Positions 8,528 through 63,586 of a stretch of 64,000 nucleotides of DNA are shown here, in pieces. Numbering within the stretch: position 1 is the first letter of the stretch; every line of letters begins with the position of its first letter. The stretch lies in the NCBI RefSeq assembly GCF_018873765.1, contig NC_057923.1, forward strand, positions 8,506,413 through 8,570,412. The letters are read 5' to 3'. The notes under the pieces are model-generated. The model did no database searches. It was not told where the DNA came from and saw only the letters and a list, made by a program, of their open reading frames with translations. A program made the position numbers and the translations under genes. Origin of the DNA: Telopea speciosissima. Taxonomy: Eukaryota > Streptophyta > Magnoliopsida > Proteales > Proteaceae.

Positions 8528-8536
8528 TATTAGCTA

Positions 8537-9900
8537 GGGCAAATTTCACGGACACCCCCTCTAAGTATTCAAAATGGCACGGACTTACCAAACTTGGTCC
8601 AAATGGCAACCTTCCCTCTGACGTTAAATAGGGTTACCACCCAAAGTTAAATGTCCATTTTAACCCCATTAATTATTTAAAAAAACAAGATGAAATATCC
8701 ATTTTAACCCCAAAGTTGAAATGTCCATTTTAACCCTAAAATATCAACCTTCCCCCTTCTTCCCTCTTCTTCCCTATTCCAACAATCTACCCCCCTCCCC
8801 CAAACCCTAACTCGCCGCCGGCAGCCCCTCACCGCTCCTTTCATCTCTCACTCATCTCTCACTCATCTCTCATTGCCTGAACCTGATTCAGCCTGGTGTA
8901 TTCATACCTTAATTTTCCCCATTTTTTGTTTCCTCTTTCTTTCTGGGTCCTCCAGAGTAGTCAGATCGCGAAGAGCAGCAGTTGTTCATACACGGTGAGC
9001 ATAAAAACGAGCTGCTCACCAGTAAGATTCACCCGAGACAGAATCAGCCTCTCATTTGACGAAGCTTATGGTAACCAGGTCTGCATCGATGATCACTTCT
9101 TCAAATTTTTATTATCTGTTTGTTCTCTTGAAATTCCATATTCTTAAAGGAAAGGATTAAAGGAATATGTATCTATTTTGATATCTGATCTGATCTAATC
9201 ATTGAGGTGGATTAGGTTTATGCCCCAAGGCTGGACGACCCATCGTCTCGGATTTTTGAGCAATGCTCGACGGATATGTTTCAGATAAGAGGGCCATGTA
9301 CCTACCAGATTTGTTATCTCTATCTGCTAAGATCCGGTTATGATGGTTGGAAGCCGGAGATAGTGAAGGTGTACGTGGGGCCTTCTACGGTTTCCTTCCA
9401 TTACAACACCTTCATTCCCAATGGAGTTTGGTTTGGTTTTAGTCTCTGCAATTCCAATGTCAACTAGAGTTCATCCTTCTCTGTTTGTGTCAAACCTGGA
9501 TTTTCCAAGAAAGCTGCAACGCCAAGACCAACACCATCACCCTCTCCCTCTCGGATTTTTATACTCTTAAGTTCACATCGAACACTCCGGTAGGTAGTGA
9601 GAGATGAGAGGAGCGGTGAAGGGCTACCGGTAGTGAGAAGGGGGATTGAGTTAGGGTTTGGGGGAGGGAGGAGACCGTGAGGCAGATAAAAAGTTTAAGG
9701 ATATTATTGGGAGTTCACCTTGTTGAAAGGGTAATTTTGCCATTATAAAAATGTTAACAGCAGCTTAACTGCAAAAGACTAACGGACTGGACTTAGTTGA
9801 AATATAATCATAAAATAAGGGCAGTCTTTGATATTTTTTCGAAGTTTGGTAAGTCTGTGACATATTGAATACTTAGAGGGGGTGTCCGTGAAATTTGCCC
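8537..9900 (+). mobile_element. Pack-MULE with captured ATS3/PLAT gene
   Basis: Ends are inverted copies: GGGCAAATTTCACGGACACC at 8537 and its exact reverse complement at 9900. Arm similarity resumes inside, near 8790-8870 and 9597-9670 (CCCTCCCCCAAACCCTAACTC, CACCGCTCC), so the inverted repeats are about 330 bp. Flanking 9-mers are TATTAGCTA (8528-8536) and TATTAACTA (9901-9909), an 8/9 target duplication of Mutator type. The interior has no transposase but carries a two-exon plant gene copy (8896-9467). It is non-autonomous. Confidence 0.82.
8896..9467 (+). pseudogene. Captured embryo-specific protein 3 (ATS3-like, PLAT domain) gene copy
   Basis: Two exons, 8896-9078 and 9216-9467, joined by GT-AG sites in phase 0, give 144 open codons ending at TAG. 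Exon 1 encodes SSCSYTVSIKTSC and RFTRDRISLSFDEAYGNQ. Exon 2 encodes VYAPRLDDPSSR, GPCTYQICYLYLLRSGYDGW and NTFIPNGVWFGFSLC. These are typical of the plant ATS3/PLAT family, secreted or vacuolar lipid-associated proteins expressed in seeds. A hydrophobic stretch upstream looks like the remains of a signal peptide. No ATG is in frame: an in-frame TGA at 8884-8886 precedes the frame, so the original start was lost. It lies wholly inside the MULE, hence a transduplicated copy. Transcription is unknown. The intron and open frame suggest recent capture or some retained constraint. Confidence 0.8.
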
Positions 9901-9909
9901 TATTAACTA

Positions 9910-11256
9910 TTACAGAATAGAGTAGGTTAAAACCCATGAGAAATGCTTCATCATCAAGGGGGGGAAAAAAAAAAAAAAACCAAAACAAAACAAAACAAAA
10001 AAATAATAATAATAAAAAATAAAACATGCTGTTTGTTTTCCCAATTTTGCCACTATCAGTGTCATTCCATTATGCGTCACGAATGATAGTGAAGGATATG
10101 ACTATTATTATGTGGAAATAGAGAGGATTTGCCCACAATGTATTGGATCCGGCTCCTCTCTAGGAAGCCCAATGCCTAGGGAGTGCCTAGTGAGGCATCC
10201 AATAATGTTGGGCTGTTGGGCGTGTTGGGATGTACCCTGGCACCCAGCAGCCCAGCACGGTGATGCACTCCCTATGTGCTGGGGTCCCTGGGGAGGAGCC
10301 CAACGCCAATGTATCAGGCGTCATGGCATCCTTGGGGCCAGGTGTAAGTAATGAATGGAACTGTCAAGAGTCCTACCTCATTCATTATATCAGCTCCAAA
10401 AAAACATACTTAAATGATGGAACTCATTACGAAATGTGAGTGCATATATTTGTGTACGTTGGATTGTATCGTCGGGGAATATTGAATGGATTATTATCTT
10501 GTTTCATTTCAAATAATTAAATCTCATTAGGATACATGGACGAAACTTGCATAGCCCGATTGTAGCCCATTTAATATAAACCCGTATATTGGCACATTTA
10601 GCCCGTATAGTATGATCCCGATTATAGATCGGTACCTAATCGACCGTTTATAAATAGGACTATACCTAGCTTAAAAGGACTGATTATTTAAATAGGCCAA
10701 TCATGATGCAAGATCCTAAAGTAAAAGGGGACCGATTAGACCCCACGAAACCAGCTCGGACCGACCCATCGAAAGCCCTAATTGGTGCATACCTGTGCCG
10801 CTCTCTTTATTTGTTTTTTTTGGGACGGCCGAACCCTAGTAGCCAGGCAAAACCTGGCCCATGTAAAGTTCGGCAACCCACTTGTACCTGAAAACCCGAA
10901 GCCCATGAGAACCAAAGGATTTTGTATGGGTAGTACCAATGGGTTGAGTGGAGAGAGTGGAACTCCAGACCTAAGAGTGTCAAACAGTCGATTTAATCTG
11001 GTTTTGATAATTTTTTTTCTTCTATTTCTTTTGTTTATAATGGGTTTAACCTTTTTTTTTTTGCATTTAACGGGTTAGACTAAAATTACTTTATCACAAA
11101 AAAAAAAGAGGTTAGAATAAAATTGGACCAATAAGATGTTTGGTCTACAAAAGTCCATCCTTTATTGGTCTATTTACTGGTTCGGTCTAGATTTTCATAT
11201 ATTAATTGCTAAAATGTTTTATATCTGGGGCTAGAACCTATTCTCTCTCTCTCCTA
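9910..11256. other. Gene-free stretch with repeat remnants
   Basis: No supported gene. Contains an A/G-rich low-complexity tract at 9958-10022. A segment at about 10140-10215 (GGATCCGGCTCCTCTC, GTGAGGCATCC) resembles the ends of the repeat at 44219-44385. Dispersed TAGCCCGAT-type sequence lies at 10540-10680. Confidence 0.35.
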
Positions 11257-11932
11257 AGGGTGTCAAACGGTGTGGTTTCGGTTAAGTGCAAATTTTGCAA
11301 GGTAGAAATCAAAACCGCACTGGATAAGAATCACCCAAAATCAGAATCGTTTCATATGCAGTGCGGTTTTAGCGGTTTCTATTTGATTTTCGTTATCCAG
11401 TTTACATGCGGTTTGTAATACCGGTTTCACCTTTGTACCCTTTAAATTTATTTCCATTTCCTTGTTATGTAGGAGAAATTATATTGTTTCATACACATCT
11501 AACTTTAGGCAAAGTTCACTTAGACATGCTAATTGCAATGATAATTTTAAATGATTATTCAAGGCCGCAAACTACAGCAAGAGAAACCAACCTGATGACA
11601 TCATCAATCCATACCCTACTCAATTCATTAAGAGAGTCCACTAAGACATGCTCGTACTAAAACCTTCCGTCCCTTCATGAATTTTGGCACTCAAACTGAA
11701 ACTTCAAAAAAAAAATCTCAATAAGAAGTCCTAACATTTTAAAGTGTTTAACCTCATTCTTAAACAAATAAGAATATTCCAATCTTAGTTTTCAACTCGG
11801 TTCTATTCGGTTAATCTATGGTTTTCCGGTTTTGAATCGAATCGAATCGAATCGGTAATAGAACCTATGAAATCAGAATCGCATCGTTTTTATACAAGTG
11901 GTTCTCGATTGTGTGGTTCCATTTGACACCCT
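11257..11932. mobile_element. Non-autonomous DNA element with AGGGTGTCAAA ends
   Basis: Left end AAGGGTGTCAAACGGTGTGG and right end TGTGGTTCCATTTGACACCCT are imperfect inverted copies. The interior is AT-rich with repeated AATCGAATCGAATCGAATCG near 11835, and has no coding capacity. Terminal form is compatible with hAT-type MITEs, but no clear 8-bp duplication was found. Confidence 0.45.
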
Positions 11933-12564
11933 CCCCCACCCCCATGAATGATCTCAGTGCCTCCTATTGATTGAACCGATAAGGTGCACTCATAGGCTCT
12001 AGCCTGCCCTGTATCCTTGGTTACCGGGCAGGAAACACCCACCCTTATAAAAAATACAAAACTTTGAAAATCTCTTTACTTTTATTGATTTTTTTTCAAT
12101 TTTAGTCCAAATGGTCGGTTTCAATTGGTTTTACCGATTGTTTTAGTCGATTTTGGTTTTTTACCGGTTTCTAAAACAAGAACCAATACAAGTAAAGAGC
12201 TCGATTGATCGATCTTGGTTGATACACAATCCATTGTTTTCACCCCTACGTGAACCTCTTGAACCATGGTCCGATGGTTGTAAATCTCGATATTGTTTCA
12301 TACATATTGATATTGACAGAACCTGACACCAATTAATAGTTGTTACGGATAGGCCAATATAGTAAATTTGGCCTGACAAACCCGGGCTAGCCCGAGCCAG
12401 TCCTGAGCCTGGATTGGGGCCTAGCTAGGCTAAAAATTTTAGCCTGCAAGACACAACTAAGCTGGGATTTTCATGCCTTTGTCCAAGGTGAGCTGGGCCT
12501 CGGCTGAGGTCTCTGGCTGAGCTTGGGCCAGCCCAACCCAACAATTTATAATATATTAAAAAGC
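11933..12564. other. Gene-free repeat-rich stretch
   Basis: No supported coding frame. Contains GC-richer AGCCCGAGCC / GGGCCTAGC-type repeat sequence at 12380-12540, which recurs in related form at 18060-18250 and 22090-22480. Confidence 0.35.
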
Positions 12565-13128
12565 AAATTACATGCACCCCTGATGTTGAAACAATAACAG
12601 AACACCCTCACATTGTTTCAACTGTTAGGTATAGTTAAACATTTGAAAATGGTCATATTATCCTTTAATTTTTGATATCGATCATTTTTTTCCTTTTTTG
12701 GTAGGATTGACATCGATCATTTTACCCTCATGAGACATAGTCATAGCGTACCATTGTCATCTTCCTCCACCTATCCCTTTCTTCTTCGGCGATCTGTAAG
12801 GAAATAAATTATCTCCGGCGATCTGCGGAGAAAGAACTCTGAAGGGTTTTGCGAATCAGATTAAAAAAAACAATCCCAAAAGATTTTTTCTTCATTTTAA
12901 TCCATCCATGGATTGAAACTGTGAGGGGAGAAGTGAAAGTTCTCCCGTAAATGACACTCGGTCCAAGATTTGATCTTGGGGACGTGAACAGGTAGACCCA
13001 AGTCTAAAAAAAAGTCAACACTGAGGAGAGAATTGAGATCGAGAGAGAGAGAGAGAGAAAAGGAAACCATTAATGCAGAGAGTAGAGGTGAAGAACAACT
13101 TACCCCAGAACCAGTAACAATGGCGGTT

Positions 13129-13715
13129 CTAATGGATCCATCCTTGAGATTTGATCAACTTGCTGATATCATCTATACAGGCATCAACGCCGTTGAGAAA
13201 CATGGTACCACTACCAGGGAACTTGAATCGATCCCCATCGAATCGAATCCAGTTCTGAACCGCCTTCTCCACCTTCAACTCCTTGTGCGGCATATTCTCA
13301 TACCACACGTAATTCCAACTCATCGGCCATTTAAATGGGTACTTGTACCCAAAAGGGACAGGCACGCGACTCTTGAGCAATTCCCCTCTCTTCAGGCAAT
13401 GTCTCTTTCTCTGTAGATCAATTTGTCCTTATCGAACTCCAAGGATCGCTTGGTGTCTTCACATGGGCTGTATTCACTGTACTTGATCTCACAAAGTCGG
13501 TAATGCTTCGTAAGCATCGTCGTCGGAGAGTCATCGGCGACATGGTGGGTCAAGAAATCCAGTTTAGGAGTGAAGGTTTTGCTCTGAATGTCACTGCAAG
13601 GAACCGAATTGACCAGGCGAGAGATGGAAGGGACTCCACCACTGTGTTGCCAGATGCCAAGGAGGTATGCAAGAGAGCAGAGAACGGTAACTAAGGCCAG
13701 GCCTAACAAATTTAG
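13129..13715 (-). pseudogene. Fragment of a PMT-type (DUF248) putative methyltransferase gene
   Basis: Read on the minus strand, one frame gives a membrane anchor (LVTVLCSLAYLLGIW, around 13700) then YSEYSPCEDTKRSLEF and LIYRER. These match the N-terminal part of plant Golgi methyltransferases of the PMT family (usual pattern YTPCQD...YRERHCP). After a stop near 13392, another frame resumes with the next family block: VPFGYKYPFKWP, YENMPHKELKVEKAVQNWIR and FKFPGSGTMF. The SAM-binding catalytic region is absent. This is a 5' gene fragment with a frame break, lying between MULE ends, and is not a functional enzyme gene. Confidence 0.72.
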
Positions 13716-13842
13716 GGATTTTTCATTTGGAGGAGAAGATGATATATGAGGGTAAAATGATACTTCAATTATGTCATTGAATTACAAAAGGTAAAGCTGT
13801 CTTTTTACTTTCAAAACTATCAGCTCACTAACACTGTGAGCC

Positions 13843-14028
13843 TGAAGAGATTTAGAATTCCCAGTAGATCTTTATTGACTTGAGAGATATTTATAACACA
13901 AAAGTATAACAGACCACAGAAGCTTCTAGAGCTTAGGTGGATAATGACACGTAACCATTTCCTAACAATACAAGAATACATAACACATGGGATGAGAAAT
14001 AGTCATGTGTTATCTCTTCTCCCTTACA
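13843..14028 (-). repeat. 3' LTR of copia element
   Basis: 186 bp, begins TGAAGAGATTTAGAATTCCC on the plus strand and ends CCCTTACA. By eye it differs from the other LTR at about nine positions (around 95% identity), pointing to an insertion that is not very recent. Confidence 0.93.
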
Positions 14029-14095
14029 CGCCCTCGCAAGTGCAGCAGATCAAAGAGCGCAAGCTTGTCACGAAGGAAAAAAAAGCGAGTGCGAC

Positions 14096-15220
14096 TCAAT
14101 CCCTTGGTGAGGATATCGACAGTCTGATCGACAGTGGATAGGTAGCGAACCAGCAATCGCTTGGAGGGCCCAAGATCTCGGACAAAGTGAAAGTCAACCT
14201 TAATATGCTTTGAGAATGGAAGACAGGGTTAGCAATCATATAAGTCGCACCGATATTGTCACAAAGGAGAGTAGGTGCGGTGGGCAAGTAAACGCCAAGT
14301 TCTCCAAGGAGAGACTGAATCCAAACTAACTCGGTGGCAGTAGCAGCCAAAGCACGATACTCCGCCTCTGTAGAGGAGCGAGACACAATCCGTTGTCTTC
14401 GGGAACCCCAAGAGATGAGGTGACAGCCGAGAAAAATACTGAACCCGATAGTAGAGCGACGATCATCAAGACAACCGGCCCAATCGACGTTTGAAAAGGC
14501 CGTCAAGGAGATAGACGAGCCAAGAGCAAAGAATAAACCCAAAGCGGTGGTGTCCCTTAGATAACGAAGGATCCCTTTGACGGCAGACTAATGAACGTCA
14601 GTTGGGGCATGCATAAACTGGGCGACCTTACCAACTGCATAACCAATGTCAGGCCAGGTGGCGGCCCAATACTGTAGGGCACCTACGGTCTGACGATACA
14701 ACGTCCCATCGGGAAGGGGACTACCCAAAGATGACAACAGAGAGGAACCCGCGGCCACTGGTGTCAAAATGGGCTTAGCAGTGCTCATTTGTGTTCTCGC
14801 CAACAAATCGGTGATATACTTTTGCTGGGTTAGTAGAAGACCAGCCGGTGTGCGCTGGGCCTCAATACCAAGGAAATAGGTTAGATCCCCGAGATCCTTG
14901 AGAGCAAATGACCCTGAAAGTGCCTTATAGAGGTTGGAAATCACAACGGGACTGTTACTCGTGATGAGGATGTCATCAACATAGATGAGAAAATAAAGCA
15001 CAACGTTGTTGGAGCGATAGATAAAAAGAGAAGTCTCCGTGTGAGACACCACAAATCCATGAGAGATAATGAACGAACTCAACTTGTTATACCAAGCTCG
15101 GGGCGCCTGCTTGAGACCATAGAGGGATTTGCCCAAGTGACAAATGTGACCTGGGTAGGATGGGTCAATAAAACCGAGTGACTGAGTCATAAACACGGAC
15201 TCAACCAAATCCCCATGCAA
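14096..15220 (-). pseudogene. copia reverse transcriptase and RNase H remnants
   Basis: Reverse transcriptase frame (15220-14588) contains LYGLKQAPRAWYNKL and the catalytic YVDDILIT. RNase H frame (14542-14096) contains NVDWAGCLDDRRSTIGF, the family hallmark, and SSTEAEYRALA. A stop between them and the missing start of pol make the polyprotein non-functional. Confidence 0.9.
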
Positions 15221-15731
15221 GAAAGCATTCGAAACATCCAGCTGTCGGACCGGCTAATTTAAAGTGACAGCCAGGGATAAGACAATCCGGATGGTTGTGG
15301 GCTTAACAACTGGGCCGTAGGTCTCATCAAAATCAAACCCTGGGCGTTGATGATACCCCTTTGCAACCAGACGGGCCTTGTAGCGGTCAATGGACCTGTC
15401 CGGCTTACGTTTGATCCTAAAGACCCATTTACAGCCTATGACATTGGTGGCCTTTGAGGAGGGTACAAGGATCTAAGTTCCATTGTTAATCAAGGCATTA
15501 AATTCATCTTGCATAGCCATGCGCCAATGAGAAGAGCGTGCAACCTGGGTGTAGCAGGTTGGAACATCCAAATCATCGGCCGAGCGCTCAACATGAAGAT
15601 TGAGTCGAGCAGGGCGAGGTCGAAGGGAACCAGTTTGGGATATGGTAATCACACGGCAGGCGCCATTAGGGGCCACGAGAGAAGGCCCAGGAGGGGCACC
15701 GGTAACAGAATCAAGCCCACCTAGGGCATCA

Positions 15732-15965
15732 TCAACAGTAGCAGGCTCAGTGTGAGCGTTTACAACAGAAGCCGGCCCATTTGGGGTGTTTACAACAGTA
15801 GCAGGCCCCGGTGGGGTATTTACAATAGTAGTAGGCCCCTGTGGGGCATTTACAATAGTAGCAGGCCCCTGTGGGGCATTTACAATAGTAGCTGGGCCCT
15901 ATGGGGCATGGACAACAGTAGCTGGGCCCTGTGGGGCATGTACATGGGCAGCAGGCCCATCTGGA
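15732..15965. repeat. 30-bp minisatellite inside copia pol linker
   Basis: About eight tandem units of 30 bp (consensus core ACAATAGTAGCAGGCCCCTGTGG) start at 15732, 15762, 15792, 15822, 15852, 15882, 15912 and 15942. The period is a multiple of three, so on the coding (minus) strand it makes a ten-residue repeat of the type GPATIVNAPQ. It lies in the linker between integrase and reverse transcriptase. Confidence 0.88.
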
Positions 15966-16756
15966 TCAGTGGAAACAGTAGGAAGAGCAGGCCCACGGGC
16001 GGCCACATCTGAAGGTGTACAAGGCAAGAGAAGTGGAGCAGAGGATACGAACCAAGAAAGAAAGGGAAGAGAGGATGGTCGAGAAGAATCTAAGGAAGAA
16101 TAAGGAAAGAGCGACTCATCAAACATGACATGTCTAGAGACAAATGTACTGTGAGTAGAAGGATCGTAACAGAGGTAACCCTTGTAAGAAGAAGAGTATC
16201 CAATAAAAATGCATGGTTGGGAACGAGGTTGGAGTTTATTCTTAGCATAGGGCCGTAGCCATGGATGGCATAGACAACCAAAAGTGCGAAGTAATGAATA
16301 ATCCGAAACAGAGTGAAATAGAGCTTGGAAAGGTGTGGTGTTACCTAGCACAGAAAGAGGTAGCCGATTGATTAAATAGGTTGCAATTTGAAATGCAACA
16401 GACCAAAAAGAGTCGGGCATACTGGCTTGGAACAGTAGAGCAAGACCAGACTCCACCACATGGCGGTGCTTTCGCTCTGCCACCCCATTCTGCTCCTGGG
16501 TATGAGGACAAGAGATTCGATGGGTGATGCCATTTGTGGCCAAGATATCCTTCAGTTTGAGAAACTCACCACCCCCATGGGGTTGAAAGGACTTAATGGA
16601 ACATCCAAAATAATTTTCTACCAAATTCTTGAAACGAATGAACACTGAATGAACATCAGATTTATTTTTAAGTGGATACAGCCAATAGTATTTGCTAAAG
16701 TCATCAATGAATACTATGTAGTAACGAAAATGATCAAATGATAAAAGAGGGGGCAA
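15899..16756 (-). pseudogene. copia integrase core
   Basis: Frame encodes VFIDDFSKYYWLYPL (first Asp), FQPHGGGEF where the family normally has FQSDGGGEF, and EQNGVAERKHRHVVE (catalytic Glu). The second Asp of the DDE triad appears replaced by His, so integrase activity is doubtful. The C-terminal part runs into the ten-residue repeats. Confidence 0.88.
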
Positions 16757-16874
16757 GGCCCCAAATGTTGCTATGAATTAGCTCCAAAGGAGAAGTACTA
16801 ATGGAAGAAGAAGAAGCAAATGGAAGTTTATGACTATGAGAACAGCGACAAGCATCGCATGTACCAAGGGAACT

Positions 16875-17528
16875 CTATGGTGGCGCAGCTGGGATGGAGC
16901 GAAGGACATGGCAAACACAAGACATGGCTGGATGTCCAAGACGTCTATGCCAGTCAGTTATTGTGGTCAGAATTGAAGTGGAGAAATCACGGTAGTCTTC
17001 ACCAAGACCTTTAAGAATGGCTAAGACAAGATCCACATCATGAACAGGATTGTTGATGGCGGCTAGGGCATCAGTGATGGATCGCACAGCAAGAAGAAAC
17101 TCAATAACAGAAGAACTGCCTTTTTGGATTCGAAGAAGCCTATCTTTGAGATCCATAATCCTAGATCGTGAGGAAGGCGCAAAAACTCGATTTAGGGTTT
17201 CCCAAGCATTGTGAGATGTCCTGGCGTAGAACACATGAGGCAAAGTCTCCTCTGAAAGAGAAGAGATCAACCAGCTAAGAATTAGCTGATCTTGACGCTC
17301 CCATAAGGCAGAGAGAGCAGCATCGGTAGTTGCAGAAGGCTGGGGAAAGCTCCCATCAATGTAGCCAAGCAAGTCGTGGCCACGCAGCAATGGTAGAAAC
17401 TGTGCACACCAGTGAAGGAAGTTAGTAGAAGAGAGCTTGAGCGGAAGAGAAGGGTGGACATTCAGAGAAAGTAACGAAGGAGAAGAAGAAACGGTTACAG
17501 AGGACGAACCAGAGAGATCGGAAGCCAT
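16875..17528 (-). pseudogene. copia gag fused to pre-integrase motif
   Basis: Starts MASDLSGSSSVTVSSS and contains typical copia gag blocks (LSSTNFLHWCAQFLPLL, HNAWETLNRVFAPSSRSR, LKGLGEDYRDFSTSI). It passes directly into TDWHRRLGHPAMSCV, the pre-integrase motif. The CCHC zinc knuckle and protease that should lie between are missing, so an internal deletion has joined the two parts in frame. Confidence 0.85.
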
Positions 17529-17585
17529 TAGAGCAAGAAAGAAAAAGAAAATGAAACTCTTAAGAGAAGTACAGCTACGATACCA

Positions 17586-17771
17586 TGAAGAGATTTAGAA
17601 TTCCCAGTAGATCTTTATTGACTTGAGAGATATTTATAATACAAAAGTATAACAGACCAAAGAAGCTTCTAGAGCTTAGGTGGATAATGAGATGTAATCG
17701 GTTCCTAACAATACAAGAATACATAACACATGGGATGAGAAATAGTCATGTGCTATCTCTTTTCCCTTACA
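17586..17771 (-). repeat. 5' LTR of copia element
   Basis: 186 bp, same ends as the 13843-14028 copy. It is followed on the minus strand by the TGGTATC primer-binding site. Confidence 0.93.
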
Positions 17772-17855
17772 GAGCTATCAGGGGGTTATATGTAAATGAT
17801 GAAACTATTAAGGTGTTCTATTATTATTGCAAAAACTAGGGGTACATGTATTTTT

Positions 17856-19532
17856 CCCACATTCTTCAATTTTTTTAATCAATCCACACCAGTCACACTA
17901 TTTCTTTTTTTCAACCCACCAAGTTCACCATCCACCCACTTCTCTCACTGGCTCATTCTTTTTTTTAGATTATTGTTAAGAAAGAAAAAGAAAGTCATCC
18001 TAAACCCTATAGAGCCAGGGTCAATCAAGGTCATCTATACCTTGAAATGACAAAAATTAGGGTTGACAAGGTCAATTAGGGCCACCTTGGCTCAACCCAA
18101 CTCAATCAGAATCAGTCATGGCTGATCTGGGGCTGGACAAAGATATCTCAGCCCAATCTAGGGTTGGAGGTTGGACTGTATCTACACTGAATTAATAGAA
18201 CTTAGGATTGGGTTGGGATTTAAAAAAAACCGGCCCAACCTACCCATTGACGAATCCCCACCCATCCCCATTGACACCCTAGTTAAAAAAAAATTTTAAA
18301 AAAAAACAAATCTTGATTTGGCCTGATACGCTTTGTACCGAAACAATAACTGATGCTAGGTTTTATCATGGTTTGACTATTTGAGGAATCGATATGGGTG
18401 GAGGCTAATCCCGATTTCTGGCCGATCCCATGTTGGTGGATTGGTATGAACATGAGTAAAATATAAAAAAATCAAGTTTTTTGAAAAAAATATGACTAAT
18501 AGAGTCTGATCCGGATTAATATCGGCAAAGACCGATACGCTACCTATACCAATTTCTAAAACCCTGGGTCTAATATCAATGCATGCTCTTTATCATGGTT
18601 TTAGTGCACGGTATCAGAACGAGTATCAGTTTCTGACCAATATGGTATCAGATCAATATCAACATGAATTAAAGTATCAAACAAATTTGGCCCTAATTCT
18701 CTTTTAAAAATTGATTTTTTTGACTATTTTACCGTTTGTCTATACCGTCTCACCTATATGGTATCGACACGATATTGAAATCGATCACCTATAAAACCAA
18801 TATGTTACCGATACCGATATGATACTGATGCCTTGAACCCTTGAACCCTCGAACCATGCACCTCCTTATTGACTCTTTTTTTTTTTTGTTTCTTAGGGGG
18901 TGGGGTGTGGGGGTGGCTCAACCCTATCAAAATAATAAAAATCCTCCTTATGGACTGAGCTCAATACTACACTTTTGAGGGGCAGCAGCCCCACTCCCTC
19001 TGCACCAGGGCGTGGGGCTCAAGCCCCGATTTGATTAAAACACACTAGTTGGAGTGTTTAGCGCAGAGTCTACTAAACGCGTAGAGAACCAGAGAGCAAA
19101 AGCAGAGTAGAAATCTCGAATTAGAAGAGGAGCTCGAGTCATCAAACAAATCATAAATCTAAGAAGAAGAAGTTAGGACTTAGGAGACATTAAAAATTAC
19201 AATTTCCAATAAAACCTGTCGTTTCTCTGCTATTCCTACTTTCCAGTGGCCCTGGAATTTTGATAATCCAGACCACTTTGTCTTCACGCACCCAATTTCA
19301 CGTGATTCCTCTCCTTCAGTCCCGATGAGGACGAAACCCAGAAAGAGACCTTCCTCCCCAGTCTCTCTCTCTCCCTCCCTCCTTCCATGGTAAGTTATCC
19401 AGAACCCTACTGCGGAAGTAAGAGATCTAAGATATAGAAAGCAAAGCTTTAGAATTTCCTCTCTTTTCTCTCTCTCTCTGGTTTCATGAATCATGACCAC
19501 ATTACAACTACAGTAATTGCTCAAATCATTCC
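17856..19532. other. Gene-free stretch with dispersed repeats; promoter of LRK10L gene at its right end
   Basis: No supported gene. Two repeats rich in GATACC/GGTATC words lie at about 18360-18570 and 18590-18850; related copies occur at 21575-21690, 43920-44095 and 58490-58735. The last 400 bp (pyrimidine-rich, CTCTCTCTC near 19360-19480) should hold the 5' UTR and promoter of the receptor kinase gene. Confidence 0.4.
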
Positions 19533-24918: not shown

Positions 24919-25031
24919 AGAGCATGGCTACGTATGCTTCAGTTTCAGCACTACAAGAGGAGAAGGTTATCAGAGTCTGTGACCCTCTAAATATAAACAT
25001 GATTTGGCCTTTTCTTTCACTTCTTGATTAA

Positions 25032-28010: not shown

Positions 28011-28351
28011 TTCTTCTTCTTCTTTGATAGTAATTGCCCCGTGAAGTAATGGAAGAAAGGGGGCATTTGACCAAGAATGGCTACTCCTTACTAGAGATGG
28101 GAGAGATGCAATCATGGATGGTTCTCTGCCGTTAGGGTTCTTCAAAAGTAGAAACAAGGGAAATAATGAAAGAAGAGGTTTATGTTAACAAGAGCAATTT
28201 GATCAATATATAATATGTTCTAATGTTTTTTGTCTCACGTTAACGGAATGGGTTTACTTATTAATTATTTAGAAAAGCTAGGTGGTATGCAAAAATAGGA
28301 AAACATTATTTTTTATGAAATTGTATCATAATTTAGGAACCTGATAGACCT
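28011..28351. other. Gene-free stretch
   Basis: AT-rich sequence between the LINE remnant and the 28352 fold-back. No feature seen. Confidence 0.35.
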
Positions 28352-28496
28352 TTATCCGCTGCTGTAACGGCAGCGCTGCTGTGCGCATCGTGTGGTGCAG
28401 CAGCGACCATGTGTGCACACATGGCCGCTGCTGTGCGCATCAACTGCTGCGCCGCATGATGCGCACAGCAGCGCTGCAGTTACAGCAGCGGATAAA
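28352..28496. mobile_element. Nested palindromic fold-back element, CAG/CTG-rich
   Basis: Outer arms of about 38 bp: TTATCCGCTGCTGTAACGGC at the left pairs with the reverse complement of CAGTTACAGCAGCGGATAA at the right. An inner near-perfect palindrome is centred on TGTGCACA (AGCGACCATG / CATGGCCGCT). GC-rich in an AT-rich setting. Flanks GAACCTGATAGACC and GAACCCGATGACC are similar and could be an imperfect duplication. No coding role seen. Confidence 0.65.
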
Positions 28497-29355
28497 AAAG
28501 CGAACCCGATGACCTCAATGTTGAAATTTCCCATGCTACATCAACGGTGATACGTGGAACGCTATCATTCATAACATTCACATGGGACCCACATAACAGG
28601 ACATAAAATTAAAAAATAAAAAGAAAAACCAGACATTGTGGAACACATTTTCCTCATCAATTTTTTTTTATAGCAAAAACCGACTTCAAGAATGGAATCT
28701 TGTTGACCAATAAAACTTCTTGTCTTAGTATAACATCCCTCTTCAACTCCTCAATTCACAAGGACCTGCACACGATCGTCATTTTGGAAATAAAGTTGCA
28801 GAGATAGAAGGCTAGAAGATGATAACTTAGATCCTTCTGACTATCCCAGTTGGGTATTCAGAGTTCAGACCGTATTGAAATCCATCCATTCCCCATGCAT
28901 AACATCAAAACCAGGATTTAAAGACTGATTCATCTTCGGCTGGTGGGATCTGTTAGTCAGCATCACTCTCAAAACACTTTTCTCCATTCCAGAAACGTTT
29001 TGAGAGAATGAAACACACACGGCAATAGCCGTTGGAGACCTTTTGAGCTTCTACGGATGAGCATTACAACCAGAAGAACCATGGCCATGATAACCAGAGG
29101 AACCATGGCATAACTATATATTAAACTGCATGCATCACCTTGAAAGAAAATCTGGTTATGTGCTTTCTTACTAGTGGCTTTTCTTGTGATGATGACTAAA
29201 ATTGATGATATAACAATTGGAATTCTTGAAGTAACATCCACCACAAACGTTACATTTCAAAGCAACAGAGACAGAAAAATATGAAAAAAGAAATCAACGC
29301 GACTGATTTACAGTAAGGTGTTTCATCTAATTCCCTATCAAGTAGTTTACAAGAA
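28497..29355. other. Downstream region of the BTSL gene
   Basis: No supported coding frame. Should include the 3' UTR of the minus-strand BTSL gene near 29355. Nothing else recognised. Confidence 0.35.
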
Positions 29356-32300
29356 TCAGAGAAGCCTAGTATTAAATGAACCGCAATATGGACACTTGTG
29401 ATAAAGCCAATGGAAGGGAGTTACACCTCTCTTCTCACAATCATTGCATAATATGACCTGCAATACTCACAAAAATTTAAATGAACAGCTCAGGAAGTAT
29501 AAAACAAGAAAAGAGATGATGCAAAATAGATGAATGAGGAAGCAACCTGAGTCTGGCCAGAATACTCCACTGGGATTTTCTCTTCAGCTAACACCACATC
29601 CAGCATCCCAAAATACACCTGCCATACCATCATCTAAACCATTTAAGAAGAAGGCTGAAACCTCTTGGGTGTAATTCATATAAATTAATCCAAGGAATTG
29701 GAACTAAACAGTACTCATTATCCTGCACCCCTAAGTTGAGTGGATCTCCCCAACCCCAATCCCTCAACCAAACTAAGAATTAAATTATTGTCCTCGAACT
29801 TCACACCTCACTGTTAGCATGAACAGAATGCACACACATCTTGGGTCTCCTAAGTCCTAAAGTATACTTTTGCTGATACCCTAGGTTCTCTTGTATCCCT
29901 CACCAACTTTCTAGTTTAGGTGGTCCTCCCTGCAGAAGTTCTCTTTCTATTTCAGAAGATTCTGTAAGACTGAACAGGCCAAATTCTAGGAACTAGTGCA
30001 TAGACCATCATGTATTTCTCAGGACTGTTTTTTTTTATCTCTTTGGTAGGAATGTAGGATGTGAAAGTGACCTGTTAATTTAACCCGGAAAAAAACAGTC
30101 ACTTTTTAGTGAATGGAAGGTTTCTAATTGGATTGGCTATTGACAAAATTAATGTAAGGATTCTAATTGGATTGGCTATTGACAAAATTAACCACATTGT
30201 ACATGTAGATACAAGTATTATGGATTTAAGCTTTGAAAAATTTTAAAAGAATCCCACCATTCTTCTATGTCAACCGATAGGTTTATGACTTCTTTAGGAA
30301 AAAATAGGCTCGGTGAGAACTGCAACATTAGAAATGCAACTAGAGCCAATTTCTACCTTGAAGGATTAAGGAGTGCAGCTTCTTTTGTGATTCAACATTC
30401 ATAAACCATGGATTGTTAGTGGCAATCAAGCTATATCTTCTGGGGAAAAAAATTCTTAAAATGTATGCCAAAATTCAACGTGAATACCTAATTAGTATAT
30501 AATTAATGAGAATTCATTGTTATAGAGTATGTTAGCATGGACATTGATTATAAAGATTAAAAACATCAGTTCCACTCTACTCAACTCTTACCTTATCGCA
30601 ACTAAATGGGTTCGGCTACATGAATCCTTTTGCCATTTGACTCTATTTAGGGCTGTTCTTGATGTCAACATCCACAAATTAATCGAACTTAATTAAAAGT
30701 AAGCTATAGCTATAAATAAAAAAGCTGGAATTTCTCATCATTGCCAGAGAAAATAATGACAATGAATGATAATATAAGTATATATTTTGGATGTCATTGG
30801 ATCCTTGAGTTTAAAGTTCAGGAATTTAGGACATTGCAACTAACGATTGTATTGATACTATTTTGATTGGTAGTTTAGAATATAATTATAGGGTTTTTTA
30901 CAATTACCACCCCAAAATCTTTTGTATTTACGATTACCCCCCAAAAAAAAAAACTTTGAAACAACTATTACCCTCCCCTATTGCATACTAATAACCAACT
31001 GACCCCCACCATTACAGACCAGTTACGGAAGGGGTTAGTCGTGAGAGTATGCCGCTGCCATGAATTTTTTAGGACCAAAATACCCTTATATCAAAACGAA
31101 AATTTTCTTCACTTCACCTGCACTTCATCTTCTTCACTTCCTCTTCACCTGTTGCAGCAAATCGGTGGAAGAACTTCTTTGTGCTTTTTTTCCTTCCGTT
31201 TTTCTCCTTTTAAACTTTCCTCTCTTCTCGCTGTTTTCTTCCTCTTCGATCAACCCGGAAGCTATGTGCAGCAGCAGAGTATACATTTCAAACACCAGTC
31301 TCTCCACTTCAAAGAAGATCTTCTTTCACACCATGGGAGTGAGGTTCGAGCAGCGTTGTCTCTGTTCATAAGCACATCCGCCACAACATTTTCTTTTGCA
31401 ATCACTCGATCTCCTTTATTTCGTACAACTTCGGACTTCTCAGATCTCAATCATGTTCGGCTGTGTACTCTGCAATCATGGCGAACCCAGAATCCAATTC
31501 TCGCTGTAAGAAGAAATCGAAGAAGGATCGAAAAACCATCTTCGTCTCCCTCTCCTTCTCCTTCTCCTTCCTGCTCCCATTTCAGGTATGATTGATATAA
31601 GCAATAACAGTTTTGAATAGTTCTTTCATGGGTGGACTGAGATTTGGATATATAAATTATAATCTTTTCTTTTGCTAAAATTACAGTAAACAACGTCACT
31701 ACTACTTGGCCGTCAACAGAACCCAATTCAAGATGGTAAAATCAGAATCTATTATGCCCTTATCGAAATTTATTTTATTTTCCTGGAACCAAATAGATTC
31801 GGAGGGGGAGGATTTGAGGGATGGATGGGGAAGGAGGAGATGAAGGGTTAGTTGGGTGTTTGTGGTTTGATGATTTTGTTGAGTAATAGAAGGAAACCTG
31901 AGACCGATTTGGCCTGTGGAGTTTTAGGGCTGTTACTGTTAGGATCTTTGGTTTGGGATTGCCAGAAGGCGATGAAGGGGTGGGTTTTGGGGTTCTGCTC
32001 TTGTGCTCTGATGGTGATTTTGGGGTTAAGGAGTGAGCATTTACACATACGCCTTAAAGATTTAAGGGTTCGCTCTCCCTTCATAAAGATTGCCAGGGCA
32101 AGGAGAAGATGAGCTACCTAATCTTAGATTTGAAAAAAAAAGAGGAGAAATTTTTCTGATGAATTCTGTTCTCCACAGTTACAACTGTTGCTAGAACTCT
32201 CTCTTGCTTCATTGAAGAAGAATCCATTACTCACTCTTGATGTAGTGACAGAATTCTCTGAAATATCTATCTCTGTGACATTATCACAAGAACCTGGACG

Positions 32301-36081: not shown

Positions 36082-36127
<46 letters not shown>

Positions 36128-58977: not shown

Positions 58978-59135
58978 GTCTACGATTCCCTGATCGGTGC
59001 GGTTCCCTAGTGCCTCTCACAAGAGGGGGGTGGGACTCACCCGGGGCACTTGACCGACTACTCTGCCCGAGTGGGATCCACCCTCCTCTTGTGAGAGGCA
59101 CTAAGGAACCGCATCGGTCAGGGAACCGCATACGA
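58978..59135. mobile_element. Fold-back MITE with 70-bp arms
   Basis: Arms 58978-59047 and about 59066-59135 are inverted copies sharing ATTCCCTGATCGGTGCGGTT (left) and its near complement at the right, with TAGTGCCTCTCACAAGAGG in both. Short loop of about 18 bp. Same family as 957-1094. Confidence 0.75.
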
Positions 59136-59562
59136 TAAAAATTATTGTATCGCCACGCAAGGTGAAATTACTTCTTCTTCGTTTTTCCATTGGAGTAGAT
59201 GTGGATTACATAGAATAAAGGGCTTCCCACGAGGCTAGTGAAAGAGGAAATCTGTATGCCACACCAATGAGAATTTGAAGAATCGTATCATATACATGGA
59301 TCCACATGGCCCATATGTTCAAATAGTAGAAAGAATGTCAGTGTAGGCTTCACGGCTTCTTGTGTATGAGAGAGCATAAAGCAAAAAATGCTAAAATACT
59401 TGTCTTTCCCGTCATCATTATAATAGTTTGAAATACATGACCAATGGACATATAGTCCATAGAGGGCATAAAATGATTGTTTTATTTTCTTTTATTTTCA
59501 TGTTATCTAAACATAGCCTTAAATTAAATGCTTATCTTTTCCGTTCATTATAATATTTGAAA
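59136..59562. other. Gene-free stretch
   Basis: AT-rich; no coding frame or repeat ends recognised. Confidence 0.35.
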
Positions 59563-59915
59563 GGGTAAAATTACATGTCATCCCCTGATTTTCAAACGAA
59601 ACTCAGATCATCCCCTGGTTTTTGAAAAAATTCAAATCACCTCCTCTACAGTAACAGTGTTAGTCTGTTGTTAGTTATTGGTATGAAAGGACTATTTTAC
59701 CCTTATACTAAAACAATAAAATTAAATTTACAATACTACCCTTCATCTTCAACATTGGTCAAGGGTAGTTTAGGGATTTAAATTTATTTAACTGGCTGAC
59801 ATCATCACTTAACAGCATAAAACTAACGGTAGGGACTAATTTGTCATATTGAGATCTAAACCAAGAGGTGATCTGAGTTTCGTTTGAAAACCAATGGGTG
59901 ACTTGTAATTTATCC
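59563..59915. mobile_element. MULE-derived MITE, 353 bp
   Basis: Perfect 9-bp target duplication TATTTGAAA at 59554-59562 and 59916-59924. Ends GGGTAAAATTACATGTCATC and the inverted right end (GGATAAATTACAAGTCACCC). Both arms contain TTTTCAAACGAAACTCAGAT. No coding sequence. Subterminal words GTGTTAGTCTGTTGTTAGT and ATTTTACCC recur in 62727-63576. Confidence 0.85.
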
Positions 59916-59924
59916 TATTTGAAA

Positions 59925-60087
59925 TAGATGGCCAATGGAAATATAGAGGGCATAATGGTAAAAGGCCTAGGTAGTTTTTTTAATAGAAGCATCGTACTAT
60001 AGTAGACCTATTATATGAAAGTTATGTAGATGTCAGTGTAGTTGTCACATGAGTTTATCTCTATCTTAAAAAGGTATGGGCTCCAAC
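59925..60087. other. Short spacer between elements
   Basis: No feature seen. Confidence 0.3.
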
Positions 60088-60405
60088 TAGGGATGTAAAT
60101 GGCGAAAAACCCTTGCATCCATATTCGATTTAGGGCATCCGTATAGAGATATCCAAAATAATTCGATTAAAATCTCAAAAATCCGAATACTTAATAATAA
60201 AAATTAAGTAAATAATGAGGTTTTGAAGTTAAACAAGTTCTAGTGATGATAATCATGATCAAGAGATATGGATTGAGAGAATTGTATCCGCTAGGAAGTA
60301 CACAAGATTTAAAATCCGCATCCGATCTCGAACCGTTAGAGGTATCCGTATTCGCGGAATAGTCCGATAATCGACCGTATCCGATCAACCGATCCGTACA
60401 TCCTA
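60088..60405. mobile_element. hAT-like MITE rich in ATCCG words
   Basis: Ends TAGGGATGTAAATGG and, inverted, CCGTACATCCTA. Flanks GCTCCAAC and GCTCAAGC agree at six of eight positions, compatible with a decayed 8-bp duplication. Same family as 43432-43700. Confidence 0.55.
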
Positions 60406-60864
60406 GCTCAAGCAAACCTTGGATTTGTTATGTTTTTCTAATCTCATACTAAGATGTACCATCTGTGTGTCATAATTTAAAATAGAGAAGCAGTTACGGA
60501 GTGCTTACGCAATTTCATCTCTCTTTTCCTTAAAATAAGGGGGCAGAGGTGTCTTTTCACATGAGGAGGAGAGAGATAGACTCATGGGAGTGTTGACGTA
60601 GGCCACACTCCAGAACAGAGAACTTTTTCCCTTTAAACTATTAATTAGTTAAATGGTTAAGATTTAAGTCGAACATTAAAATATTAAAAAATTATGATTG
60701 AGCTATTTCCTTCTAATTAGATTTTTTTGAAGTTAATATTGATGATGTGATCTCAAATTTATTTTTTTTTGGTAATAGATCTCAAATTATATTGTACCAT
60801 CAACTATGATGTTTATCATAATTTAAAATGTTATAGAAATGTGATGATCTAAATTAAATGTTGA
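60406..60864. other. Gene-free AT-rich stretch
   Basis: No coding frame supported and no element ends seen. Confidence 0.35.
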
Positions 60865-60873
60865 AAAAGAAAA

Positions 60874-61716
60874 CAGTAAATTACATAGACGTCCCCTCAC
60901 CTAAGCCTTAAATATATGGACCTATCCTATGTTTCTGAAAAATACTCAGACCACCCCTCTACTTTCCAAACTTTATTGCACAATCCCAATACGTAAGTGA
61001 TTTAAGGGTAGGTAATGGCTTAATTTGAAAGTTTGATTTTTATTGACCATACTACCCTTTGAGAGGGTTGATGTTACCGTTTTACCCTAAAATACCCTTT
61101 TGCTCTTATATCTACCCTTACCCTTCTTCTTCTTCTTCTTCTTCTTAGAACACCACTGCCCATTGTCATCGCCATAGTGATGCCATAGTGGATCGGATTA
61201 TTGGCCTCATCGAGGAACACCTGGAGAGACTCCAAGTTAGCGATGTCAGCCTTGCTACCCTCTCTAATTGCTCCAACATGGAGATCTTGCACCTTTTGAA
61301 GACGACAGAGCATAGGACAACGGACTCAAGTTCCCTCCAGTAGTTAGCCACATTTCCAGCTGTTGATAATCCATCTAGCAGTTCTGGTAGATCGGCATTG
61401 TTCAGGGACAGGTTAGGCCTTTTCACCGGGAGGAATTTGTGGCCTGCCTCGTCCCTTAAGACCATCTGCCTCAAGGGTGAGGCGGTGGTCGGAGGTTGCA
61501 ACGGTGGAACAGAAAGAAATGAAGTTTCTACTTTTTTATATTGAAAAATAATAAACATAGTTAACGGTTGCCAGTAATAGTTTGAAGCAATAATAATTGA
61601 GGGTAAAATTGTCAACTCATATTATTTTCTAACGTTGCTAGGGAGTAATTGTCAAAAAAGTAGAGGAGGTTCGTGTATTTAAGGCTTAGGTCAGGGGAGA
61701 TTCGTGTAATTTACTC
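60874..61716. mobile_element. MULE-type element, 843 bp, with possible captured sequence
   Basis: Perfect 9-bp flanks AAAAGAAAA at 60865-60873 and 61717-61725. Ends CAGTAAATTACATAGACGTC (left) and, inverted, GAGTAAATTACACGAATCTC. CACCTAAGCCTTAAATA / GACCTAAGCCTTAAATA follow in the arms. The interior on the minus strand has overlapping frames with protein-like composition (LRDEAGHKFLPVKRPNLSLN; ADIANLESLQVFLDEANNPI) in two different frames. This looks like a frame-broken fragment of a host gene, which I cannot name. Confidence 0.78.
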
Positions 61717-61725
61717 AAAAGAAAA

Positions 61726-62716
61726 ATATGATATTGAATCAAATCCTTCTAATTGGATTTTTTTTTTTTAACTTGGGGCATTTTGATCATTTTACGTATA
61801 CCAGTTAACATTGGTCGTAATTAGTTGCCCCAAGCATAATTTTTTGAACGTTAGGTATCTCAAGCATAAATATCCTAAATATCCTAAATGTTAGGTAGCT
61901 CAGAATCCTCAGATGCAATATTTCATCATGTATATTGCTCCTAGTTTTTAACCCACTAGAAGGTGACCCAAAAGGGGGCAGGAGGGCCCGTGAAGGGGCC
62001 AGCACTTATTAACAGAAAATACATGACTTGCCGCAGGCGATAGGGGAGGGCGGTCTCAAAGATAAGCTCAACATGCCTCAACACCACTACGATTAATGGT
62101 CCCAACCATCAGTTTAGTAGCCATACATACTAAGGACTCTTATATGAAAATCAAATGGGACTCGTGCCACGTCTTGTCTAGAGAGAAGTATTTCTCTCTC
62201 ACTCTCTCTCTCATATGAGATTCTTTATTATTTTCTTTCTCCTATTCTAACATTTCTACACTAGCTCCACTCTCCCTCATGAAATATTGAGTTAAAGTAA
62301 AGGGAGAAGGTTCTCTGAGCTATGTGTAAGGTACTCTAGCATCTCTTTGGCTATCTCACTTCTCCTCACATGAAATGACTTTACTGCCCTCCAATGTATG
62401 ATACTATTATGTACAATACCATTTTGCTGTACCTCGTTGGTGTGCTTCTCTATGTCACTTGCTCAAAGAATACCCTCCCTTAAATAAATTACACAATTAT
62501 GATCCAAATGTGTGGAGAGTAATTATTCTCCATGTGCTGTGCTAATTTTCCAAGAATGTGTTACCCTTAACAAAGGCCTCTGTTAGTTATTACACAAAAA
62601 TGAGAGGATAAAGTGAGATCTCCATTGAAGAGATGCTTCCCCCAAAAGAAGCTAGCGTTCAACTACCTTAATTGGCAAGGGCCACTAAGATTGAAAAGTG
62701 ATGCTAAAGTTCAATC
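61726..62716. other. Gene-free stretch
   Basis: AT-rich, with CTCTCACTCTCTCTC near 62195-62210. No supported gene. Confidence 0.35.
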
Positions 62717-62726
62717 TTTTATTTGA

Positions 62727-63576
62727 GAGAAAATTACTTGGACACCCCCTAGCCGATGGTTATTTTGTTTACGATCACCAACTTTTCAAACAATTACTTG
62801 ACACCCCCTGAAACCTAACGGTGTTAATCTGTTGTTAGTGTTTAAATGGAAATGTCCATTTTACCTTATGAGTTATTCAACTGAAATTTATGAACATCTT
62901 GCCCTTCTTCTTCTTCTTGAAAATCATAGTATTTAAGTATTGATTGAAAAGATATTTTGTTTGTTTTCACTTTCCTGTTTCCGGTTCTGTTATTTTATTC
63001 CTTCTATAGTTTTTACGATCTCTTCCAATGTGTGACATTAATGTCTTCATATGATGGCTGATCCCACTGGGTCCAAGTTCAAATTAATTAGAGGCTGGCT
63101 TTTCTGTGTGGTTTGGGGCATGAAATCGTGTAATACTGAAGGGTTTACATGTGGTTGGTCTTTGGTCCACCATTGCACTGTCCTTTTCTATTCACTTCGT
63201 CTTTTTCGGGTTTTGTCTGGTATTAAGATGATGGGTCAGGGAGGAACTTGGGATAATGGAATGTGACTTGTTACAACTTAGTAGTTACTGGATTTAGGGC
63301 AGAAGGAATGGGTTTTTTATGCTTGTCACCCAATGTTTCAGAAATTGAATCGAAATCCCCCAATGGTTTGATTGGAATCACCCGACGCTGTTGATATGGG
63401 GGTGGAGGGAATGAGATAGGGTGAGGCAAGGTCGTATGGGATAGGTTGCAACAAGAAGAAGAAGAAGAAACAGAAGGAGGTAAATCTATCACTTCAGTAA
63501 CCTTTAAGGTAGGCATTACAAAAACAGGAGAATAAACAAAATGGCCATAGTTTAAGAGGTGTCTAAGTAATTTTAT
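62727..63576. mobile_element. MULE-type element, 850 bp
   Basis: Flanks TTTTATTTGA at 62717-62726 and 63577-63586 (10 bp, at least 9 as target duplication). Left end GAGAAAATTACTTGGACACC and inverted right end AAAATTACTTAGACACC. GGTTATTTTGTTTA / GGCCATTTTGTTTA follow in the arms. The interior has a plus-strand ATG frame at 63054-63266 (MADPTGSKFKLIRGWLFCVV...) that I do not recognise; it could be captured sequence. Confidence 0.75.
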
Positions 63577-63586
63577 TTTTATTTGA

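Follow-up and report, generated by a model that had tools for sequence, protein, structure and literature searches.

Non-autonomous Mutator-like elements of Telopea speciosissima with a common terminal signature and periodic C-rich boxes

Described Mutator systems and the elements of the window

The maize MuDR/Mu system and the plant MULEs are the closest described relatives of the elements considered here, and they have in common 9-bp target-site duplications (TSDs), inverted ends, non-autonomous partners, and a MURA-type transposase with DBD_Tnp_Mut, MULE and SWIM domains. To our knowledge, it is poorly understood how transposases of this type recognise ends that are seemingly unrelated between families. 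According to the accessible part of PMC3310237, maize MURA binds a conserved motif of about 32 bp. However, the end sequences of maize Mu differ from those found here, and C-rich boxes spaced at 31 bp are not described for them in the accessible text. Three other systems are relevant. Pack-MULEs, such as tomato PM-ZIBP (PMC3310237, accessible part), multiply together with host-gene-like fragments, as do our elements A and B. Mutator accounts for 41.5% of the MITEs across 207 plant genomes (accessible part of PMC12550479); our element C is short, multi-copy and flanked by 9-bp duplications like such MITEs, for example FaSt of Prunus (PMC12071656, accessible part), beside which this family of the Telopea genome is set by description rather than by sequence. 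Finally, the Mu element upstream of the Hieracium PAR allele (PMC10485273, accessible part) has ends beginning GAGTAAATTACA.AAATGGTCCCT, with another C-rich spot lying a further 29-35 bp inward, although it comes from another plant order, its second spot holds 2 C in 6 positions, and it has no link to a transposase.

The window, i.e., the whole stretch of 64,000 nucleotides analysed here, belongs to the 823-Mb genome of T. speciosissima, whose assembly was the one searched. Element A (8537-9900, 1,364 bp, no strand assigned) is Pack-MULE-like; its first 25 bp are the same on both sides, with GGGCAAATTTCACGGACACCCCCTC at both ends, and its flanks, TATTAGCTA and TATTAACTA, match at 8 of 9 positions. 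The MULE B (30891-32990, 2,100 bp) has C-rich boxes and long inverted ends, with arms of 52 and 148 nt, between exact copies of ATAATTATA (9/9), and it deviates most strongly from the terminal signature, having TTTTTAC where the others have AAATTAC. The extra end-like copy inside B (32762-32788) is only 27 bp long and falls short of the similarity over at least 100 bp needed for multiple-TIR MULEs (PMC3310237, accessible part). Exact 9-bp duplications also flank the Mutator-type MITE C (59563-59915, 353 bp; TATTTGAAA), the MULE D (60874-61716, 843 bp; AAAAGAAAA) and the MULE E (62727-63577, 851 bp; TTTATTTGA), the last extending to 10/10 if its right end is placed at 63576. The gap-free inverted arms of A, D, C and E (75, 73, 54 and 42 nt, respectively) are shorter than the 100-500 bp given as typical of MULEs in the accessible part of PMC3310237.

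Element F (12561-17859) is a degenerate MULE of about 1.4 kb after subtraction of a nested insertion; its ends resemble those of A-E and carry the signature with three mismatches, and no TSD was found at these boundaries. The insertion is an LTR retrotransposon (13843-17771, minus strand) with direct repeats of 186 nt (13843-14028 and 17586-17771) that are 95% identical, and it looks copia-like by eye from its minus-strand open frames. The first-pass annotation of this DNA had listed a sixth element lacking a clear duplication, which agrees with F as seen here, split by the insertion. It had also given duplications of 9-10 bp for the other five: 9 bp is exact in B-E, with 8 of 9 matching in A, while 10 bp is possible for E alone.

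Target duplications and copy families

A coordinate-blind scan of the window, requiring a 9-bp duplication with at most one mismatch and inverted ends of 40 bp that match at 70% or more, gave seven pairs: A, B, D and E, inner registers of B and D, and 28346-28501. The last is a small repeat. C was missed because a one-base difference shifts its two ends out of register. Within the C family, a duplication is present in 19 of 30 copies as compared with 16 of 870 mismatched flank pairs, and a diverged paralogue of its target (59391-59500, plus strand), noticed by eye and then aligned to the two flanks of C joined together, has a single target copy. The earlier reading of the flanking repeats as target duplications is thus upheld. 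A BLAST comparison of the joined flanks of 24 elements with 363 kb of this genome gave spanning matches for three (L041, L053 and L074), the empty site of C not being among them. The match of L041 was to itself only, that of L053 was to L068 over 34 bp, and that of the autonomous element L074 fell in the window, on a repeat (60178-60296, plus strand) that is the counterpart of its empty target, with 80% identity in an alignment of 141 columns that includes 22 gap columns. Both empty sites, of C and of L074, are paralogous sites; A, B, D and E had no spanning match in the 363 kb compared.

How have these elements multiplied in the genome? For A, the best 40 of 1106 end candidates were scored. 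The family carries a captured fragment of ATS3 (embryo-specific protein 3), which in the window lies at 9276-9464 on the plus strand (PF06232, E 4.1e-21). This fragment is found within an A-type end in 11 elements, the window copy included. In contrast to the described Pack-MULEs (PMC3310237, accessible part), the nearest host-like ATS3 copies elsewhere in the genome are distant, being just 41-47% identical.

For B, nine paired-end copies of 1.7-2.3 kb, the window copy included, were recognised by eye among 40 matches. The host-gene-like open frame of B (32127-32591, minus strand) recurs in other copies: it has matches in 17 places and lies in nine B elements, seven of them with both ends found (joined by eye). 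One place, C3:6102931, is 86% identical to the fragment inside a frame of 270 amino acids, with no B end nearby among the best 40 B end matches, and may be a donor-like relative of the fragment outside B elements. The fragment may resemble a piece of an R2R3-MYB gene; Pfam gave no match for the two frames tried, nor did PDB for the one tried. Both A and B thus hold a captured fragment between MULE ends, and would appear to have acquired pieces of host genes and amplified them in the manner of Pack-MULEs.

The C family is short, numerous and uniform, as expected of a Mutator-type MITE, with matched lengths of 324-358 across 30 loci (best 40 of 3019 first-look candidates scored). The relatives of D are few and diverged (best 40 of 61 candidates scored).

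Terminal signature and MuDR-type relatives

The window has 11 matches to the terminal signature with up to three mismatches, as compared with 3.3 expected, and none of 100 shuffles reached 11. All matches with no mismatch (three) or one (two) lie at ends of A, D or E. Four of the six with three mismatches are ends of C, E or F or the end-like copy in B, while those at 31096 and 50947 look like chance. A-E were picked partly on their common ends, and the common terminal pattern described earlier is real on this count. The subterminal blocks said to be common to several elements are more restricted: GTTAGTCTGTTGTTAGT stands out only in C and, almost as plainly, in E, and TCCATTTTA is present in A and E. 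Across seven families the first 24 bp have a mean identity of 63% as against 29-33% further in, or 37-46% in mean pairwise identity beyond this point when shifts of up to two bases are allowed.

Transposase loci were found through PF03108 and not PF10551. The best 30 loci obtained with PF10551 as search key formed one similarity cluster that was FAR1-type-like by eye, without a Pfam run. One candidate for an autonomous A element, L021/L069, has a single A-like end near a PF10551 gene which reads by eye like a FAR1/FRS host gene, and it was rejected. Two loci, chosen by transposase domain and not by end sequence, contain complete autonomous elements with PF03108, PF10551 and PF04434: L074 (366-6869, TSD AAAAAAGAA) and L073 (853-7244, TSD TAAGATTAA). 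Both ends of each fit the signature, with AAACTTC in L073. In the remaining six of the eight loci (L071, L072, L075, L076, L077 and L078) no TSD-verified end pair was found within the stretch examined; a signature-like 5′ end is present in L071, L072 and L078, and none was recognised in L075 and L077.

The first 24 bp of E match L076:163-186 at 24 of 24 positions. In an alignment of 199 bases, the 3′ end of the E-family copy L007 has 74% identity to the L076 end, although for three of four E ends the figure is only 50-64%. The L076 end compared is its left one; its PF10551 score (29.0 bits) is near the cut-off of 27.6, and Pfam found no SWIM domain in its next frame. Most likely, E depends on an L076-type transposase for mobilisation. 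A MURA-type transposase is accordingly linked to E through L076, and to the signature itself through L073 and L074.

The best 40 end matches of the three MuDR-type families lie near DBD_Tnp_Mut far more often than the 0.12 of 40 expected by chance for each: 22 for L074 (12 sites, ten of them with ends on both sides, this last count being drawn from 28 of the 40 matches), 15 for L073 (nine sites, six both-sided) and six for L076 (six sites), each site count including the query's own by construction. Ten further places match the L074 end at 96-98% identity. For A, B and D, no DBD_Tnp_Mut was found within 8 kb of any of the best 40 end matches, nor, in a comparison that used incomplete lists, within 15 kb of 40 places of E and 30 of C; the genome searches run gave no transposase-bearing copy of A, B, C or D.

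These results agree with the first-pass annotation that the elements are Mutator-like, having 9-bp TSDs and inverted ends and sharing their signature with MuDR-type elements, that they are non-autonomous, no transposase being recognised within those of the window, and that they form one superfamily. The search it proposed for an autonomous relative succeeded, since MuDR-type elements with the same signature were found in the genome. Its suggestion of one transposase type is not supported: past the first 24 bp the ends sort into separate families, the searches turned up three MuDR-type families that differ in their ends, and identity is 35% in one and 37% in the other of the two transposase pairs compared.

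C-rich boxes and the proposed recognition of the ends

What is new here is that ends alike only over their first 24 bp nevertheless carry C-rich boxes recurring with a period of 31 bp. In seven families the C boxes fit best at this period at 5′ and 3′ ends alike, which are not independent in this test (0 of 1000 shuffles, run on C among the four bases). The best scores were C 61 (period 31), A 52 (49), T 39 (17) and G 22 (12) at the 5′ end and C 53 (31), A 47 (46), T 40 (19) and G 17 (12) at the 3′ end. The hypothesis was framed on the same ends, seven families only, as were tested; an initial test, with offset windows picked post hoc and L072 included, gave 0 of 2000. Outside the period test, a second C-rich spot lies at offsets 27-35 in F, L072, L076 and the Hieracium Mu, of which the Hieracium ends alone came after the idea was framed. 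F has its second box at offsets 27-31 at both ends and a third at 58-59 at the 3′ end only. Second boxes are weak in A, D and E (3 C in 6 positions), and L073 has no third box. We know of no C boxes in maize Mu ends, so the pattern is not universal; in the literature covered, mostly outside subscription journals, we found neither a 31-bp C-box array nor this signature.

Flanking duplications and inverted ends, copy families, the paralogous empty sites of C and L074, and autonomous elements bearing the signature were all observed directly. On these grounds A-E, and probably F, are very likely non-autonomous members of several MuDR-type families. A MURA-type transposase, with its DBD_Tnp_Mut DNA-binding, MULE catalytic and SWIM zinc finger domains, would recognise the ends, cut, and insert with a 9-bp staggered cut that yields the 9-bp duplication. 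The terminal 24 bp, about GRG.AAATTAC....AC.CCCCT, would be a putative cleavage and recognition site, and hence conserved between families. The C-rich boxes, spaced by three helical turns, may be further contacts through which several transposase subunits sit on one face of the helix, while family specificity may reside in the bases flanking the boxes, so that each family would need its own transposase. We infer, from sequence, that transposase contacts are arrayed along the ends in helical phase.

Could a single transposase mobilise them all, recognising the shared 24-bp terminus alone? The terminus is common to seven families, autonomous ones included, and for A-D the searches run gave no close autonomous partner. 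However, the genome contains at least three MuDR-type families whose transposases have diverged, and the ends of each family lie near DBD_Tnp_Mut sites of their own, so we regard this as quite unlikely. It is even harder to credit that the elements belong to a different superfamily whose duplications measure 8-10 bp (hAT, 8 bp), or that they are chance inverted repeats: some copies do have 8-bp or 10-bp flank matches, but exact 9-bp duplications occur in 9 of 30 C copies, like ends flank MuDR-type transposases, and ten simulated windows gave no such pairs under the same scan.

The boxes themselves, together with the CGTTA motif, might be parts of promoters or enhancers, given that MuDR genes are transcribed from end promoters and the MuDR end has enhancer motifs (PMC3310237, accessible part). 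Yet the boxes also occur in C, a MITE of about 355 bp for which a promoter should be superfluous, and the array begins within the terminal 24 bp; this role seems improbable. We are similarly doubtful that the period is a relic, with no present function, of an old tandem duplication of a 31-bp unit in a common ancestor. The regularity of the period would fit, as would the longer terminus block that L074, L076 and E repeat about 60 bp inside, but from family to family the boxes are retained whereas the spacers are no more alike than background, a pattern that points to selection on the boxes.

Together with the phased contacts, one can tentatively picture the MuDR-type ends here as a fixed scaffold, possible though not favoured, of a 24-bp cleavage terminus, same-face C boxes at 31 bp and an inner CGTTA, perhaps eudicot-wide, in which free spacers would set specificity and each end would hold a multi-subunit array. 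The conserved 24 bp and the evenly spaced boxes offer a concrete way to model the complex and a rule by which MULE ends can be sought. Since an L074-type autonomous family, a MITE family and two fragment-carrying families coexist in one plant, cross-mobilisation can be studied there; if the model is true, the scaffold may serve to pair autonomous and non-autonomous MULEs where ordinary similarity fails.

Mutator-like elements of the window

The first-pass annotation had placed five Mutator-like elements (MULEs) with flanking duplications in the window, and each was found there: A (8537-9900), B (30891-32990), C (59563-59915), D (60874-61716) and E (62727-63577). Their target-site duplications (TSDs) match at 8/9 bases in A and at 9/9 in B, C, D and E; if the end of E is set one base earlier, its match is 10/10. 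A coordinate-blind scan of the window gave seven pairs (A, B, D, E, inner registers of B and D, and 28346-28501), and the same scan on 10 simulated windows gave none. The pair at 28346-28501 is a small inverted repeat whose flanks match imperfectly as a 9-bp duplication (GAACCTGAT/GAACCCGAT); its ends lack the signature, the terminal ~24 bp (AAATTAC, then CCCCT) shared by the elements. An additional 27-bp copy of B's own end lies within B at 32762-32788, adjoining the inner border of the right arm. That the window elements are ordinary in kind, namely MULEs, a MITE (C) and Pack-MULE-like elements (A and B), is well supported.

The degenerate sixth candidate, F (12561-17859), had been described as having no clear duplication. 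The terminal motif is present at both sides, and a flanking duplication looked for at its ends was not found. F is interrupted by a copia-like LTR retrotransposon (13843-17771) with 186-nt direct repeats, 95% identical. The bases bordering this insertion, GAGCC/GAGCT, are consistent with a 5-bp duplication in which one base differs.

Are the flanking repeats target duplications, as had been claimed? The empty-site comparison bore this out for C and for L074 with two paralogous empty sites, each with one target copy. For C, a diverged copy of the target region just upstream (59391-59500) reads through with a single target copy. It forms part of a local duplication around C (59391-59500 versus about 59520-59990), whose upstream copy is the empty site. 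For L074, a genomic locus with a MuDR-type transposase, the target resembles window positions 60178-60296 and the second target copy is absent; this match is weaker than that of C because 22 of 141 aligned columns are gaps.

Families, copies and cargo

First-look end candidates, which are distinct from verified copies, numbered 3019 for C, 1106 for A, 906 for E, 815 for B and 61 for D, and 1065, 279 and 156 for the transposase loci L076, L074 and L073. Paired ends were located in all 30 fetched C copies, the window's own included. A duplication (exact over at least 8 bases, or at least 9 with one mismatch) flanks 19 of them and is lacking in 11; nine of the 19 have an exact 9-bp score, and a few of the 19 fall in plain A or T runs. 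Pairing flanks across different C copies as a control gave a duplication in 16/870. In the E family, four of seven fetched loci besides that of the window (L002, L004, L005 and L007) have paired ends and a 9-bp duplication, which is exact at one of them and has one mismatch at each of the other three. At L003:472-1457, beside an E-type end, lies a long inverted repeat whose inner matches are palindromic; it bears no relation to the signature. By eye, B has nine paired-end copies of 1.7-2.3 kb.

Element A contains an ATS3 fragment (PF06232, E 4.1e-21). Of 19 matching places, 15 sit 647-835 bp inside an A-type end, representing 11 elements with that of the window, while C8:7338453 and C11:38114778 have no A end nearby among the best A-end matches; two ATS3 places, 41-47% identical, are host-gene-like. 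The B frame matches 17 places, by eye 12 within nine B elements and five outside. Both ends were located in seven of these nine elements, and four of the nine have stops within the frame; the best match outside is 86% identical and has a 270-aa frame.

Autonomous relatives and their transposases

The search for an autonomous relative proposed in the first-pass annotation found elements with the shared signature. PF03108 (DBD_Tnp_Mut) gave at least 150 places above cut-off, and among eight such loci with long frames that were fetched, two hold an element that is complete and flanked by a 9-bp duplication: L074:366-6869 and L073:853-7244. Both start with GAG and carry AAATTAC (L074) or AAACTTC (L073) plus CCCCT at positions matching the window elements. 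The first 24 bases of E occur unchanged at position 163 of L076, and a second motif copy ~60 bp further in is common to both. Nine frames were run against Pfam, and DBD_Tnp_Mut was found in six (L072-L077); the MULE domain passes the cut-off in L073, L074, L076 and L077 and falls short of it in L072, and L075 has none. A SWIM domain is present downstream, in the next frames of L073 and L074, but Pfam did not find one in that of L076. Transposase identity, compared for two pairs, is 35% for L074 and L076 and 37% for L073 and L074. PF10551 also gave at least 150 places, of which the best 30 form one cluster, read by eye as FAR1-type proteins. A lone A-like end adjoins a FAR1-like gene at L069:2235-2413 on contig C3.

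We linked ends to transposases by counting how many of the best 40 end matches per query lie within 8 kb of any of 150 DBD sites (PF03108 matches); only best candidates were scored, so the counts are lower bounds, and those for L074, L073 and L076 include the query's own site of origin. The chance expectation is 0.12 of 40. The L074 end gave 22/40 at 12 sites, with ends at both sides in 10, the L073 end 15/40 at nine sites (both sides at six), and the L076 end 6/40 at six sites, all upstream in the correct orientation. The A, B and D ends gave 0/40 each, and among 40 E places and 30 C places, compared by way of incomplete lists, none lay within 15 kb of a DBD site. At most of the 10 sites with ends at both sides the matches are 96-98% identical to the L074 end, which suggests that the L074-type autonomous family has been recently active.

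Architecture of the ends

The 5' ends, one per family (A, B, C from its copy L053, D, E, L073 and L074), have a mean pairwise identity of 63% over bases 1-24, and of 29-33% in the five 24-base blocks that follow (64% versus 37-46% with shifts of up to two bases); the ends had a part in the choice of A-E but not in that of L073 and L074. The Mu-type element upstream of the Hieracium parthenogenesis gene (PAR allele) has a closely similar terminal signature (PMC10485273, Table 5).

C-rich boxes lie at about 17-22, 47-52 and 77-82. When periods of 12-51 were scored, with the maximum taken in shuffles as well, the best period of the 5' ends was 31, with a score of 61 against a shuffle mean of 36.3 and a shuffle maximum of 48 (0/1000 reaching 61), and it stays at 30 or 31 when any one family is left out. 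The 3' ends, with E from its copy L007, also gave 31 (score 53; shuffle maximum 47, 0/1000). Ends outside the period test have C-rich spots at 27-31 (both ends of F) and 58-59 (one end), at 33 and 60 (L072), at 31-34 and 60-62 (L076), and at 29-35 in Hieracium, with just two C in six; only the last was unseen when the box idea was framed. The motif CGTTA/TAACG, chosen by eye, occurs inside 11 of 16 ends in the range 60-150 (shuffles mean 1.8, maximum 6, 0/1000 reaching 11). Its distance from the outer end is 83-140 bp in A, B (3'), C (3'), D (3'), E (5'), L073, L074 and L076. Since the families are presumably related, the end pattern represents conservation, not independent repetition.

A period of 31 bp is close to three helical turns. 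MURA is reported to bind a conserved ~32-bp motif (PMC3310237), and DBD_Tnp_Mut is assigned to the WRKY-GCM1 superfamily (PMC9569675). Taken together, these points allow the C-rich boxes to be read as putative transposase contacts on one face of the helix, and the terminal 24 bp may be the cleavage site. The end architecture of these families is both conserved and periodic, and seems worth testing.
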